Assembly (NCBI RefSeq): GCF_009930815.1
Contig: NZ_CP022222.1
Location: forward strand, 4,940,501-5,004,500
Reading direction: 5' to 3'
DNA: 64,000 nt
Source: Bradyrhizobium sp. CCBAU 051011
Lineage (GTDB): Bacteria; Pseudomonadota; Alphaproteobacteria; Rhizobiales; Xanthobacteraceae
Shown here one piece after another: positions 11,778 through 15,784 of the stretch. A program made the translations under genes and the position numbers. Position 1 is the stretch's first letter, and every line of letters starts with the position of its first letter. The notes below the pieces were generated by a model. That model was not told where the DNA came from, ran no database searches, and was given only the letters and a program-made list of their open reading frames with translations.

Positions 11778-12638
11778 CTAGCGCTCGGTCTTGCCCGCCG
11801 ATTTAGCGCGGCCAGCTTTGGGCCGTTGCCCCTGCAGTTTGGCGATGAAATTCTGCAGCACCTCCGAAGGCGGCCGCGCCGCGCCGTAGGCGAGGCCGAC
11901 TTCGCGCTTCACGTCGACATCGATCTCGCGCACGGCGACATCTGAATTGGCCCGCGCCACGCCTTCGGGAACGATGGCAATTCCGACGCCGGCGGCAACC
12001 AGTGCCATCGCCCAATCTTCCGACTCGGCGATCGCCGCCGGTTGGCGGGGCGCCGATGCGGCGCGGCCGAAGAATTCGCTCTGTTCGCAATGGCAGCGAT
12101 CGACCATGGCGACGCCGGCGAGATCCGTCGTGCGCAGCCGCTCCTTCAGCGTCAGCGGATGCGATGGCGGCAGCGCTGCGACGTAGCGCTCGACCCAGAG
12201 CGGAACGAAATGCTCGTCTTCGCGCAGCAGGTTTTTGGAGACGATCCGCGCGTCCGCAGTATCGTCAACGCCGACGAGGCGGAGCGCAACGTCGGACGTT
12301 CCGGTCAGCGGCTTCAGCAGCGCGATGGTTCGGGGACGATCGAGCGTGCGCATCAGGCCGAGCGTCAGCGAATTCCGCTTCGCCGGTTTTCGGAACAGGT
12401 TTTTTGCGGCGTCCGCTTCGTCGATGATGCGGCGGGCCACCGTGTGGAATTGTTCGGCCGCTTCCGTTGGCGCCACTCCCTTCTTGTGCCGGATGAACAA
12501 CGCCGTGCCGAGCTCGGCCTCCAGATTGGTGATCGCCGCCGAGATCGAGGGCTGCGAGATGAAGCAGCGCTTGGCCGCCGCCGTGAGGTTGCGCTCCCTG
12601 AACACGGCGGCGAAATAGCGGAGCTCGCGGATATCCAT
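11778..12638 (-). CDS. LysR family transcriptional regulator
   Basis: This encodes 286 residues. The winged helix-turn-helix spans residues 1-60 (MDIRELRYFAAVFRERNLTA, then RCFISQPSISAAITNLEAEL) and is followed by a periplasmic-binding-protein-like effector domain (about 90-260) with VPEGVARANSDVAVREI. The C-terminus is Lys/Arg-rich. It is divergent from the metallo-beta-lactamase-fold gene at 12732 with about 90 bases between starts, the classic arrangement in which a LysR protein controls its neighbour. The effector is unknown. Confidence 0.92.
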   Translation of the reverse strand: MDIRELRYFAAVFRERNLTAAAKRCFISQPSISAAITNLEAELGTALFIRHKKGVAPTEAAEQFHTVARRIIDEADAAKNLFRKPAKRNSLTLGLMRTLDRPRTIALLKPLTGTSDVALRLVGVDDTADARIVSKNLLREDEHFVPLWVERYVAALPPSHPLTLKERLRTTDLAGVAMVDRCHCEQSEFFGRAASAPRQPAAIAESEDWAMALVAAGVGIAIVPEGVARANSDVAVREIDVDVKREVGLAYGAARPPSEVLQNFIAKLQGQRPKAGRAKSAGKTER

Positions 12639-12671: not shown

Positions 12672-12731
12672 ATTTTACCTATGATGCCGAGCATGGCAAG
12701 CAAGGCGCCTGACCTTGGAGGAGACATCGTC

Positions 12732-13589
12732 ATGCGCGTCCATCATCTCAACACCGGCACCATGTGCCCGATCGGCCGGCGTCTGGTGAACGGCAGCGGC
12801 AGCATTTTTCAGCGCGCCCGCATGGTCTGTCACTGCCTGCTGATTGAGACCAATGACGGACTGGCGCTGGTCGATACCGGTATCGGCCTGGACGATATCG
12901 CCAACCCGCCGCGGCTCGGACCGAAATGGGTCCGGCAGACCACGCCGCGGCTCGACCCGGCCGAGACCGCCGTCCGGCAAGTGGAGGCGCTTGGCTACTC
13001 GCGCAACGACGTGCGGCATCTGTTGCTGACGCATCTCGATCGCGATCATGCCGGCGGCATTCCGGATTTCCCGAACGCCAGGGTGCACGTCCATCGCCGC
13101 GAGCACGACATGGCGGTGGCGCGGACGGCACCGGCACCGAAGGGGCGTTACGTCACCGATCAGTGGAAGCATGGTCCGCAATGGGCATTCTACGGGGAGG
13201 GTGGTGAGGACTGGTTCGGGTTCAAGGGCGTGCGCGCGCTTGGCGACCGCGAGCCCGATATCCTGATGATCCCGCTACACGGCCATACGCTCGGTCATTG
13301 CGGCATCGCCGTGCGGAGTGGCGACAAATGGCTCCTGCACGCGGGCGATGCCTATTTCTTCCATGGCCAAATGCAGGCGTCGCCGCGAATGCCGCTGGTG
13401 CTCGGCCTGTTTCAGCGCCGCGCCGACATGGACCGCGCCATGCGCATTGAAAATCAGGAGCGGCTGCGAGCACTCAAGAAAGATCAGGGCGATGCCGTGA
13501 CCATCTTCAACAGCCACGATCCCATCGATTACGACAACTGCCGTTGCGGTCAACAACACCAGGCCGGACCATCCGCCACACAGTGTTGA
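12732..13589 (+). CDS. MBL-fold metallo-hydrolase (AHL-lactonase-like)
   Basis: This encodes 285 residues from ATG 12732, with a strong GGAGGAG ribosome site 8 bases upstream; the open frame extends much further left but overlaps the LysR gene in antisense. The metal site is visible: LLLTHLDRDHAGG (HxDxDH instead of the usual HxHxDH), then HGHTLGHCGI, HAGDAYFFHG and a late FNSHDP histidine. The overall order resembles N-acyl-homoserine-lactonase-like hydrolases, but the substrate cannot be deduced. It is probably regulated by the divergent LysR. Confidence 0.85.
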   Translation: MRVHHLNTGTMCPIGRRLVNGSGSIFQRARMVCHCLLIETNDGLALVDTGIGLDDIANPPRLGPKWVRQTTPRLDPAETAVRQVEALGYSRNDVRHLLLTHLDRDHAGGIPDFPNARVHVHRREHDMAVARTAPAPKGRYVTDQWKHGPQWAFYGEGGEDWFGFKGVRALGDREPDILMIPLHGHTLGHCGIAVRSGDKWLLHAGDAYFFHGQMQASPRMPLVLGLFQRRADMDRAMRIENQERLRALKKDQGDAVTIFNSHDPIDYDNCRCGQQHQAGPSATQC

Positions 13590-13634
13590 TGTCCCCGCGC
13601 ATCATCCATATTCCGCGATGCCAAGCGGCTGGCG

Positions 13635-13665
13635 TTGACGCCTGAGCGTTTTACCGCCATATACG
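13635..13665 (+). promoter_or_regulatory. Candidate promoter for the thrS leader
   Basis: TTGACG (13635-13640) and TATACG (13660-13665) resemble -35 and -10 hexamers, though the 19-base spacer is long. The expected transcription start falls at or next to the ATG of the leader peptide (13670). This would make the leader mRNA leaderless, as is known for the trpL leader of Sinorhizobium. Confidence 0.5.
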
Positions 13666-13669
13666 GCGC

Positions 13670-13747
13670 ATGAATAAGCTTCTGTCAGCCGCATTGACCA
13701 CCACCGCGACCGCTCACGGCGGATCGCCTGCTGGTTGCGCGCGCTAA
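13670..13747 (+). CDS. Threonine-rich leader peptide (attenuator peptide)
   Basis: A 25-residue frame starts MNKLLSAALTTTATAHGG and stops with TAA at 13747. Four of five consecutive codons (ACC ACC ACC GCG ACC) specify threonine, exactly what an attenuator for a threonyl-tRNA synthetase would need. The stop lies 18 bases before the left arm of a strong intrinsic terminator, so a ribosome that finishes the peptide would favour termination and a stall at the Thr codons would favour read-through. No Shine-Dalgarno sequence is evident, consistent with a leaderless start. It is too short for normal gene calling. Confidence 0.7.
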   Translation: MNKLLSAALTTTATAHGGSPAGCAR

Positions 13748-13765
13748 AGACAAGCGTACTTCACC

Positions 13766-13809
13766 AGAAAAGGCCCCGCCGGCGACGGACGGGGCCTTTT
13801 CTGTTTTTG
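13766..13809 (+). terminator. Rho-independent terminator / attenuator before thrS
   Basis: A perfect 13-bp stem (AGAAAAGGCCCCG at 13766-13778 and CGGGGCCTTTTCT at 13790-13802) surrounds an 11-base loop and is followed by GTTTTTG. It lies between the threonine-rich leader peptide and the synthetase start at 13854, the layout of a transcription attenuator. Confidence 0.85.
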
Positions 13810-13853
13810 ATGGTCCCCGTCCGCGCTTTTTCCCATCACAAGGAACTTAAGCC

Positions 13854-15056
13854 ATGGACGATCTCGACCACAGAAATCTCGGTGTGCAGCTCAAGCTCTG
13901 GCACCTTCAGGAAGATGCGCCGGGCATGGTGTTCTGGCATCCGCGCGGCTACGCGATCTACCGGATGCTGGAGGACTATCTCCGACTCAAGATGCGCCGC
14001 GCCGGCTATGCCGAGGTGCGGACGCCGCAGCTGCTGCCGCAGGAGTTCTGGGGCCGCAGCGGCCACTGGGACAAGTTCGGCGAGCATATGTTCCGGGTCG
14101 ACGATGGCGAGCTGGCGATGGCGCTGAAACCGATGTCGTGCCCGTGCCACGTGCAGATCTTCAACAAGGGGCTACGCTCGTGGCGGGAGCTTCCGATCCG
14201 CTATGCCGAGTTCGGTGCTTGCCACCGCAATGAGCCTTCCGGTTCGCTTCACGGCATCATGCGGACGCGCGCCTTCGAGCAGGACGACGCCCATGTATTC
14301 TGCCGCGAGCAGGACGTGGAGGATGAAGTCGCGCGCTTCATCGCCCTGCTGGGCGAGGTCTACCGAGACCTCGGTTTTCCCGACTATGAGGTGGCGCTGG
14401 CGACGCGTCCGGCGGTGCGCGCCGGCGACGATGCGACGTGGGACTGGTCGGAGGCCAAGCTCGGCGATGCCGCGCGGCAATGCGGCCTCGTGCCTCACAT
14501 CAATGCCGGCGAAGGCGCGTTCTACGGACCGAAGCTGGAATTCGCGCTGCGCGACCGGCTGGGACGATCCTGGCAGTGCGGCACGGTGCAACTCGATGGC
14601 GTCCTGCCGGAGCGGCTCGAGGCGTCCTACGTCGCCCCCGACGGCAGCCGCGCGAGGCCCCTGATGATCCACCACGCCATCTTCGGATCGCTAGGCCGCA
14701 TGATGGCGATCCTGCTCGAGCACCATGACGGCGTGCTTCCCTTCTGGCTGTCACCGGACCAGGTCGCGGTCGCGCCGATCTCGAAAGACCAGGCCGGATA
14801 CGGCGCCGACGTGCTGGCAGCATTCGAGGATGCCGGGATCAGGGCCGTTGCCTATGACGGCGCCGATACGCTTTCGCGGCGCATCGTGGCGGCTCATGAA
14901 ATGGCGGTGCCGGTGATGGCTATCGTCGGCGGGCGCGAGATGAGGGAGGGCCGGGTGACCTTACGCGAGCGCGACGGCTCACAGGCCGACGTTCCACTGG
15001 CCGAGGCGGTGTCCCGCCTGCAGGCGAGGGCCCGGCCGGGCGGCCCTTGTGGCTGA
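13854..15056 (+). CDS. thrS: Short threonyl-tRNA synthetase lacking TGS and editing domains
   Basis: This 400-residue class II synthetase starts right at the catalytic domain (DHRNLGVQLKLWHLQEDAPG), with an AAGGA site before the ATG. Full bacterial ThrRS has about 640 residues, with an N-terminal TGS and a Ser-tRNA(Thr) editing domain; both are missing here. The zinc ligands are present (Cys96 in KPMSCPCHV, His147 in DDAHVF, His273 in MIHHAIFG), as is motif 2 (Arg125 in FGACHRNEPSG). In motif 3 the usual SxER has become GSLGRM, with Gly281 where Glu is normal and Arg282 kept. The anticodon-binding domain fills about residues 300-395. It is probably a second ThrRS beside a full-length one elsewhere (inference). 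Expression appears to be attenuated by threonine supply. Confidence 0.88.
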   Translation: MDDLDHRNLGVQLKLWHLQEDAPGMVFWHPRGYAIYRMLEDYLRLKMRRAGYAEVRTPQLLPQEFWGRSGHWDKFGEHMFRVDDGELAMALKPMSCPCHVQIFNKGLRSWRELPIRYAEFGACHRNEPSGSLHGIMRTRAFEQDDAHVFCREQDVEDEVARFIALLGEVYRDLGFPDYEVALATRPAVRAGDDATWDWSEAKLGDAARQCGLVPHINAGEGAFYGPKLEFALRDRLGRSWQCGTVQLDGVLPERLEASYVAPDGSRARPLMIHHAIFGSLGRMMAILLEHHDGVLPFWLSPDQVAVAPISKDQAGYGADVLAAFEDAGIRAVAYDGADTLSRRIVAAHEMAVPVMAIVGGREMREGRVTLRERDGSQADVPLAEAVSRLQARARPGGPCG

Positions 15057-15169
15057 AGCCCTGTAAAACCTGCCTCAGGCGCGCTCCGATCAGTGGACCC
15101 CTAGCGGACGTGCGCAGCGCCCGCGGACGCAGTGACCTTAGGAGTTGTCGTTCGTCAGGAACCCCCTGA

Positions 15170-15784
15170 TCAGCGCTTGGAGCGCGGCGCGGGGGGTGGT
15201 GCGGGCGCTGGCGGCTCGGGCTGCTTGGCCGGTGGCGGCTCGGTCTCGATCGTGCAACGCGATGCCGCGAGCGAGGCCTGTGCCTGCGGCATCAGGCCGG
15301 GCTCCGGCGCCAGCGCCTTCAGCACGATCAGCCCGGTGACGGTCGGGGAGTCGATGATCAGCCGGTCGGCGGCGGTGACTTCCTCATCCTCCGGCAATTC
15401 GGAATGCTGCGCTTCCGTCATCAGGTCGAGCTCGATCACCTTGCGGCCGGCGGAGCGGTCGTTGATGGCGTAATAGGCGACCTCGTTGCGCGTGTAGAAC
15501 GACACCGAGGTATAGGCCTGGCTGACCGGTACCGTGAGTTTCAGCGGGCCATCCTTGAGGTCGTAGCGGCAGATCGCCACCGCAAAGGCCGGGTCCATGA
15601 ACGGCATCGGCGCATTGTTGGGCTCGGCCAGCGGCAGCGCCGTGACGGCATTCTCCTTCGTCATCGGCGTCAGCCGCGAATAGGCGTCCTGGGTGGCAAT
15701 CCGCGGCAGCGCCAGCACGCTGACGAGGTGCACCACGCCGCCCAGCAGCACGCCCGCAATGATGGTGAACACCAGCCGGATCAT
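15170..15784 (-). CDS. DUF1254 family membrane-anchored protein
   Basis: This encodes 204 residues. An N-terminal membrane segment (MIRLVFTIIAGVLLGGVVHL) is followed by a DUF1254 domain with QDAYSRLTPMTKENAVTALP, MPFMDPAFAVAICRYDL and SVSFYTRNEVAYYAINDR. The C-terminal 30 residues are very Pro-rich (PPPAKQPEPPAPAPPPAP). DUF1254 and DUF1214 normally occur in one polypeptide; here they are two adjacent genes overlapping by four bases, so the products probably act together in the envelope. The biochemical role is unknown. Confidence 0.82.
   Translation of the reverse strand: MIRLVFTIIAGVLLGGVVHLVSVLALPRIATQDAYSRLTPMTKENAVTALPLAEPNNAPMPFMDPAFAVAICRYDLKDGPLKLTVPVSQAYTSVSFYTRNEVAYYAINDRSAGRKVIELDLMTEAQHSELPEDEEVTAADRLIIDSPTVTGLIVLKALAPEPGLMPQAQASLAASRCTIETEPPPAKQPEPPAPAPPPAPRSKR

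Follow-up and report, generated by a model that had tools for sequence, protein, structure and literature searches.

A short, editing-free threonyl-tRNA synthetase of Bradyrhizobium and its predicted threonine-codon attenuator

Duplicated aminoacyl-tRNA synthetases are common and their triggers are rarely known; in the case considered here, the trigger appears to be readable from the DNA. Bacillus subtilis possesses a second threonyl-tRNA synthetase (ThrRS) gene, thrZ, which encodes a full-length enzyme and is governed by transcription antitermination, as is predicted for the gene described below. However, several T-boxes, i.e., riboswitches, stand before thrZ (PMC2494555), whereas the short ThrRS gene appears to have a translated leader peptide. 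In Anabaena, an accurate housekeeping ThrRS (T1) is accompanied by an inducible, poorly proofreading second one (T2), an arrangement much like ours, and the housekeeping enzyme provides editing in trans for the editing-impaired T2 (Rubio et al. 2015, PMC4787780). T2 differs in having kept a degenerate editing domain and in being freed from Zur in low zinc (PMC4787780), whereas the short ThrRS has neither TGS nor editing domain and is predicted to be controlled by Thr codons of its leader. The control region resembles rhizobial trpL, with its leaderless leader peptide, control codons and terminator/antiterminator (PMC7298713, PMC10117765); in Sinorhizobium meliloti, the trpL RNA is leaderless and begins at the ATG (PMC7298713). 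The difference is that trpL reads Trp and controls biosynthesis, whereas here Thr codons precede a synthetase.

As for the protein, the engineered truncated ThrRS of E. coli (residues 242-642; 1EVK) agrees with it in domain content and begins at almost the same point, at 46% identity, but it is a laboratory construct, whereas the short ThrRS is a natural gene carrying the changes N333S, V376T and R512H (E. coli numbering). Yeast mitochondrial MST1 (4yye, TM 0.91) and Aeropyrum pernix ThrRS-1 (3a31, TM 0.86) are natural and of similar size, but share 26-32% identity with it and belong to other lineages; we know of no leader-peptide control for either MST1 or the archaeal ThrRS-1. Neither a ThrRS leader-peptide attenuator nor this editing-free bacterial ThrRS family appears in the titles and abstract openings retrieved from the open-access literature, outside of which most subscription papers lie. 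In their accessible parts, a 2010 survey of premature terminators mentions no thrS leader peptide (PMC2965389), and a 2022 review has only T2 and ThrRS-L as duplicated ThrRS entries (PMC9437257).

The gene was noticed in a 64-kb stretch of Bradyrhizobium DNA, the whole of which is hereafter called the window; its features are as follows.

13854..15056, + strand: short, editing-free threonyl-tRNA synthetase, 400 aa (open reading frame list, Pfam, TIGR00418, AlphaFold2 model)
14100..14726, + strand: class II catalytic core, Pfam tRNA-synt_2b (PF00587), residues 83-291 (Pfam)
14760..15026, + strand: anticodon-binding domain, Pfam HGTP_anticodon (PF03129), residues 303-391 (Pfam)
13840..13845, + strand: Shine-Dalgarno sequence AAGGAA of the ThrRS gene, 8 nt upstream of the ATG (sequence)

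Pfam recognizes these two domains in the 400-aa protein and no other. The match to TIGR00418 (thrS), 441.7 bits against a curated cut-off of 383.65, covers model positions 172-563 of 565, so that the absent portion is N-terminal; the archaeal-type ThrRS model NF003068 scores 168.4 bits, below its threshold of 484. An earlier note on this DNA had claimed a clean loss of the TGS and editing domains behind a proper ribosome site, and this holds: besides the two-domain composition and the AAGGAA 8 nt from the start, the frame of 13854-15056 is open just one codon upstream of the ATG, which means that there is no in-frame editing domain, which the note had named as a finding that would refute it, and that nothing was clipped off. 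Truncation in the assembly was ruled out by the same one-codon upstream frame and by the recurrence of the 400-aa type in many genomes. The AlphaFold2 model of the protein (mean pLDDT 90.9) matches the truncated E. coli ThrRS 1evk with a TM of 0.94. Judged by its domains, the protein is a ThrRS core without the TGS and editing domains, and not a canonical bacterial ThrRS. Its named relatives at 92-95% identity belong to Bradyrhizobium. In 11 pairs, dN/dS is 0.08-0.23. The search of the 64-kb window for tRNA genes found none.

The earlier note did not mention what lies just upstream of the gene, namely a leader peptide and a terminator, with the following elements.

13635..13640, + strand: -35 element TTGACG, with the leader ATG 35 nt further downstream (conserved TTGAC spacing)
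13658..13665, + strand: -10-like element (CATATA or TATACG), inferred from sequence and spacing
13670..13747, + strand: leader peptide MNKLLSAALTTTATAHGGSPAGCAR, ATG...TAA, probably leaderless (sequence, conservation)
13697..13711, + strand: control codons ACC ACC ACC GCG ACC (Thr Thr Thr Ala Thr) (sequence, conservation)
13717..13735, + strand: arm 2 (CGGCGG ATC GCCT G CTGGT), predicted to pair in the stalled state with 13763-13781
13763..13781, + strand: arm 3 (ACCAG..AGGC..CCGCCG), common to antiterminator and terminator (predicted folds)
13766..13802, + strand: terminator hairpin AGAAAAGGCCCCGCCGGCGACGGACGGGGCCTTTTCT, with a T-rich tract on to 13808 (folds, conserved core)

The conservation of this region was followed over other loci of the same short type. 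Initially, 76 loci were classed as short; removal of L031 (contig edge) and L141 (a copy of L001) and merging of 5 identical stretches left 69 distinct ones, many of which come from a single genus and are near copies of each other (34 are more than 85% identical to the window), so that the counts are not independent. The partial loci L011, L020, L023 and L104 were left unclassed. With a fixed criterion (an open reading frame of 8-70 codons, no more than 450 nt away, in which a stretch of 7 residues includes 4 or more Thr), a Thr-rich leader lies upstream of 64 of the 69 short-type genes, as compared to 29 of 1380 dinucleotide-shuffled upstream regions and 4 of 119 full-length ThrRS loci (those of 123 with enough upstream sequence, the upstream window being set by a fixed offset and not by a called start). 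In the five exceptions (L039, L049, L053, L178, L206), a leader reading frame is in place but contains 2 or 3 Thr. Examples from afar include TTTTTTT in both Acidocella (L068) and Paraburkholderia (L071), and STTTATTSTTT in the myxobacterium Citreicoccus (L081).

Among the 66 loci with a pattern-matched terminator, to which the subsequent leader analyses apply, TTGAC is found 35-41 nt 5' of an in-frame leader ATG in 64, versus 2 of 1475 ATGs within genes, which predicts a transcription start at or near the leader ATG; a strict consensus promoter scan listed no promoter at the leader. Rfam gives three matches for 13500-15300 at E values of up to 1, and no T-box is among them. One of them, RF00506 (Thr_leader), scores 26.2 bits (26.4 on the opposite strand), below the gathering cut-off of 55, so that the leader is not to be filed under the Thr_leader family, and the match to ctRNA_p42d is far below its own cut-off.

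The terminator core is recovered by pattern in 66 of the 69 short-type loci, 17-36 nt past the leader stop; L055, L064 and L065 have one-base variants of it. At least 6 T occur in the 14 nt after the core in 64 of the 66, the weak T tracts being those of L081 and L200. In the window, the stretch 13660-13815 is more stable than all 200 of its shuffles (z -4.57). A consensus terminator scan did not list the hairpin 13766-13802, its T's being counted as stem. The conservation and the controls given above rule out both a chance leader and a terminator that belongs to the upstream gene.

When folded in the stalled state, 65 of the 66 leaders pair at least 4 of the 7 terminator-core bases with the 3' part of the leader, and the fold of L068 departs from the prediction. 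In a swap test with 26 diverse leaders, arms kept with their own partners reached -31.7 kcal/mol as compared to -29.1 (sd 0.6) for swapped ones, with 0 of 2000 swaps doing as well; with one arm reversed, the counts were 184/2000 and 680/2000, and a control that pairs an arm with its own reverse is uninformative. The swap test fails once the invariant core is left out (1219/2000; 67/2000 for the last 20 nt of the spacer), and it also fails for arm 1 with arm 2 (253/2000). When arm 2 is paired with the core, the mean z relative to shuffled versions of the arm is only -1.2. RNAalifold on the leader alignment (A1, 36 diverse loci) returned the terminator only and no antiterminator. The outer antiterminator helix is paired in 88.4% of cells, without covariation, because the partner strand is invariant. 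In L149, L179 and L181, GGCGG is retained in another frame of the leader (CGG CGG or TGG CGG replacing GGC GG.), and such retention despite the frame change points to RNA pairing rather than to the peptide. Accordingly weighed, the predicted attenuator appears well supported by its anatomy and modestly by covariation; counted against it are the misses of the scans, the terminator-only RNAalifold result, the failed swap tests, the L068 fold, the weak T tracts and the five leaders low in Thr.

The short enzyme is not the only ThrRS of its genome. The earlier note had advised a search of the genome for a second, full-length thrS, and such a gene, a 684-aa frame, is indeed located at G000:C1:6048214-6049926(-) of the same single-contig 9.1 Mb genome. 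An editing-domain ThrRS was found alongside the short type in 59 of the 59 carrier genomes tested; its match spans the whole query in 56 of them, begins at residue 46 or 58 in G315 and G380, and is split over two contigs in G1053. The short enzyme as the sole ThrRS is thereby ruled out, both in its own genome and in all 59 carriers. A search with the editing-domain profile PF07973 gave two matches in the own genome, one in the full-length ThrRS and the other in a 900-aa frame, which we take from its length to be AlaRS, and no free-standing PF07973 editing protein. This raises the question of what purpose an editing-free synthetase serves alongside an accurate ThrRS. The earlier note had left two ways out, namely help in trans or a use other than in bulk translation; the first fits better, given the attenuator, the coexistence in 59 of 59 genomes and the lack of a free-standing PF07973 protein. 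Editing in trans by the housekeeping ThrRS is, in our analysis, the simplest proposal for the short enzyme.

We consider it quite probable that the gene, which we denote thrS2, encodes an emergency ThrRS under ribosome-mediated transcription attenuation that is switched on when Thr-tRNA(Thr) is short. Transcription would begin at or near the leader ATG. As long as Thr-tRNA(Thr) is ample, the ribosome would pass the Thr codons and reach the leader stop, and the terminator would end transcription. When Thr-tRNA(Thr) is low, either through threonine famine or because the housekeeping ThrRS fails or is inhibited, the ribosome would stall on the Thr codons, and pairing of arm 2 with the terminator's 5' arm would let RNA polymerase continue into thrS2, the product of which would charge tRNA(Thr). 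The sequences themselves show the anatomy of the control region and its conservation, as well as the coexistence with an editing-domain enzyme and the low Thr content, whereas attenuation in cells, the charging activity and the editing in trans are inferred. With the editing domain gone, any Ser-tRNA(Thr) would be either tolerated or cleared by the housekeeping ThrRS. Counted against the emergency reading is the consideration that, in a pure famine, a second ThrRS cannot make threonine, as well as the dispensability of the gene, the changed anticodon-domain residues and the depletion of K and N, which exceeds that of Thr (see below).

A bolder scheme is that famine itself programs a substitution: the attenuator would turn on a non-proofreading ThrRS, tRNA(Thr) would be charged with serine, ribosomes would keep moving, and threonine would be replaced by serine proteome-wide until threonine returns. 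This scheme, which leans on the missing proofreading and on the altered neighbours of the zinc site (N333S in 64 of 64 and R512H in 62 of 64 rows), seems to us rather unlikely; if it were true, the enzyme's own Thr-poor sequence would shield the enzyme. It raises the question whether bacteria relax threonine/serine accuracy as threonine runs short.

An attenuator of this kind would answer ThrRS inhibition as well as famine, which is why self-protection by an inhibitor-tolerant second ThrRS, similar to ObaO, is to be weighed, too: a natural inhibitor would lower Thr-tRNA(Thr), the attenuator would open, and the short enzyme would take over. Resistant variants of ThrRS do exist, as exemplified by ObaO and the Streptomyces parvulus enzyme (PMC11252418, PMC4389257). 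However, the positions described in these sources for obafluorin/borrelidin resistance are unchanged in the short type (Y462, G463 and H309 in 64 of 64 rows, L489 in 63 of 64), and the flanks examined hold no widely shared neighbour gene, which makes this possibility unlikely in our estimate.

The residue counts refer to 64 of the 69 short-type loci, with five truncated-looking copies left out. By alignment, C96, H147 and H273 correspond to C334, H385 and H511 of E. coli, which we take to be the zinc ligands, and R125 corresponds to R363, presumably the motif 2 arginine; R137 is also kept. The claim of the earlier note that zinc ligands and motif 2 are preserved is borne out far beyond the window, since the zinc ligands and the arginine R125, together with the active-site residues Q381, D383, Y462 and Q479 (E. 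coli numbering), are present in 64 of 64 rows. The note was also right about Gly281 in motif 3, where all 123 full-length rows have Glu; residue 281 is G in 38, E in 22 and S in 4 of the short-type rows, and the motif 3 arginine (R282) is retained in all 64. Within this alignment, Gly281 is a variable trait and not a family rule. The signatures of the short type are, instead, N333S (64/64) and R512H (62/64), which adjoin zinc ligands, and V376T (58/64), which adjoins a motif 2 arginine; nearly all full-length rows are without the N333S and R512H states.

Because the altered residues N333S and R512H sit beside the zinc ligands, the short enzyme could be viewed as a low-zinc spare like T2 of Anabaena, where a duplicated, editing-poor ThrRS likewise stands beside a full-length partner (PMC4787780). 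Yet all three zinc ligands are retained, the control region reads Thr codons, whereas T2 is under Zur (PMC4787780), and there is no widely shared neighbour gene, so that we hold this to be very improbable.

In the anticodon domain, E600 is kept in 57 of 64 short-type rows and replaced by D in the other 7, and R609 is kept in 62 of 64, whereas N575, R583 and H585, which are conserved elsewhere, are mostly changed; all five are presumably anticodon-domain contacts in E. coli ThrRS. Such changes might indicate an enzyme outside translation, either an amino acid:carrier-protein ligase or another tRNA-independent threonine-activating enzyme. Bradyrhizobium has a SerRS-like amino acid:carrier protein ligase, and the ligases of this kind known to us are without a tRNA-binding domain. 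That synthetase-derived enzymes of this sort exist is documented by the SerRS-like ligases (PMC9437257). Nevertheless, the short ThrRS does have its HGTP_anticodon domain, with E600 and R609 largely in place, no neighbour gene is widely shared, and a leader that senses Thr-tRNA would be an odd control for such a function, which renders it most improbable. The emergency ThrRS remains our preferred reading.

The coding sequence itself bears on the emergency role. The short gene contains 7 Thr codons in 400 (6 ACG, 1 ACC), as compared to 20 Thr in the 418 codons (14 ACC) of the catalytic part of the full-length thrS of the same genome. Over the sets, Thr makes up 1.7% in 31 Bradyrhizobium-type and 2.3% in 24 distant short genes (55 of the 69 loci; the remaining 14 are 5 truncated copies and 9 loci with identities of 68-73%), versus 3.8% (n=20) and 3.9% (n=103) in full-length catalytic parts. 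The difference holds for representatives below 70% identity, some of which come from those 14 excluded loci (0.022 in 17 short versus 0.043 in 16 full-length ones, p 4e-6). In the short representatives, K and N are depleted beyond Thr, and I is depleted, too; the depletion of K, N and I can be explained by the GC difference between the sets, whereas Thr codons are not AT-rich. ACC accounts for 71% of Thr codons in the leaders (224/317, mostly near copies), where it is the commonest one, for 54% (420/784) in the 28 other long open reading frames of the window, and for 28% and 21% in the two short-type gene sets. Being poor in both Thr and ACC, the product would be translatable while the respective tRNA is starved. 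Leader codons that would sense a shortage and a gene body that avoids them fit a gene expressed during that shortage, and the low Thr and ACC content of the coding sequence suggests selection for translation while Thr-tRNA(Thr), which the enzyme would itself produce, is scarce.

The short type is found in 40 of the 265 genomes of the genus (matches with E 1e-130 or better) and is absent, at this cut-off, from 225; it is present in at least 9 of 398 phylum genomes and at least 13 of 385 class genomes. The carriers are Bradyrhizobium, other Alphaproteobacteria, Burkholderiaceae and one myxobacterium. In a tree built by a quick method from 32 short rows, 42 full-length rows and the E. coli sequence, the earlier note having advised a ThrRS phylogeny, all 32 short rows form a clade of their own, split from the full-length enzymes with an SH-aLRT of 100. 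The note's remark that editing-less ThrRS are not usual among bacteria needs correction in this respect: the short enzymes are an accessory bacterial clade, spread over several lineages and 40 of 265 genus genomes. Within the clade, some deeper branches of which are below 95, Acidocella groups with Burkholderiaceae (98), the Burkholderia pair L072 and L147 stands apart from its kin, and so does the Bradyrhizobium copy L206, which branches next to L146, a locus from a different family. Among the 40 genus copies, five look frame-broken or truncated (G200, G305, G320, G337 and G383; loci L058, L207, L204, L205 and L203, respectively), with the leader upstream still present; their broken look may be due to assembly error. 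Absence from 225 of 265 congeners and breakage in 5 of 40 copies indicate that the short gene is dispensable.

The flanks examined, which extend over 1.5 kb at most loci and over 4 kb at 15 of them, contain no widely shared neighbour gene, and the neighbours in the window recur at just 3-5 loci, the window included. Just upstream there are a LysR regulator gene (11778-12638, - strand) and, divergent from it, a gene of the metallo-beta-lactamase fold (12684-13589, + strand, start uncertain); most other short-thrS loci share neither of them. Plasmid cargo was considered and rejected: the best three among 102 plasmid records have about 56% identity and lie on Burkholderia and Caballeronia replicons of 2.0-3.5 Mb, and the next 17 (the best 20 of 102 being considered) have 46-49%. 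Phage cargo was rejected likewise, the best 10 of 25 phage records being at or below 49% identity. Sinorhizobium phage Phosso (PV764938.1) encodes a ThrRS homologue of 41% identity, which, by this identity, is not a short-type relative. From its distribution and sequence, the locus may be described as a selected accessory cassette of roughly 1.4 kb that seems to move horizontally. Leader peptide, predicted attenuator and editing-free ThrRS together make up a portable unit, which occupies differing sites in the genomes of Alphaproteobacteria, Burkholderiaceae and a myxobacterium.

Related leaders occur elsewhere. A covariance model of the leader matched in 48 of 289 alphaproteobacterial genomes. 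Among 32 model-matched loci (L208-L239), 7 are located before a short thrS, 13 before a homologue of asd (aspartate-semialdehyde dehydrogenase; L239, L215-L218, L222, L224-L226, L228, L229, L231, L233) and 12 before neither. The asd leader of the own genome, MTISTKATAKTKAPSGGWGAVRA (L239, G000:C1:7077530-7077641), precedes an asd gene that was confirmed by profile. The asd leaders contain Thr and Lys and, in some cases, Met codons, followed by a terminator in the style of that of the short thrS, and Thr, Lys and Met are all products of the aspartate pathway; the asd leaders are likely to act as a multi-amino-acid attenuator of that pathway. In S. meliloti, a translated small open reading frame containing six Thr and three Lys codons lies upstream of an 'aspartate dehydrogenase' gene and is proposed to encode a leader peptide (PMC10117765). 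Together with the asd leaders, it indicates that leaders with Thr codons are nothing foreign to these bacteria. It is in front of the short ThrRS that such a leader takes its pure Thr form.

Searched against 53 full-length ThrRS loci, the covariance model gave one clear match, at L084:3145-3241, a Thr leader, MHKSASTTATTTATTFWGP, that precedes the gene for a full-length ThrRS in a Rhodospirillaceae MAG. Three further matches, L219, L220 and L221, comprise peptides with TRSGG or SRSGG and lie before genes that are neither thrS nor asd.
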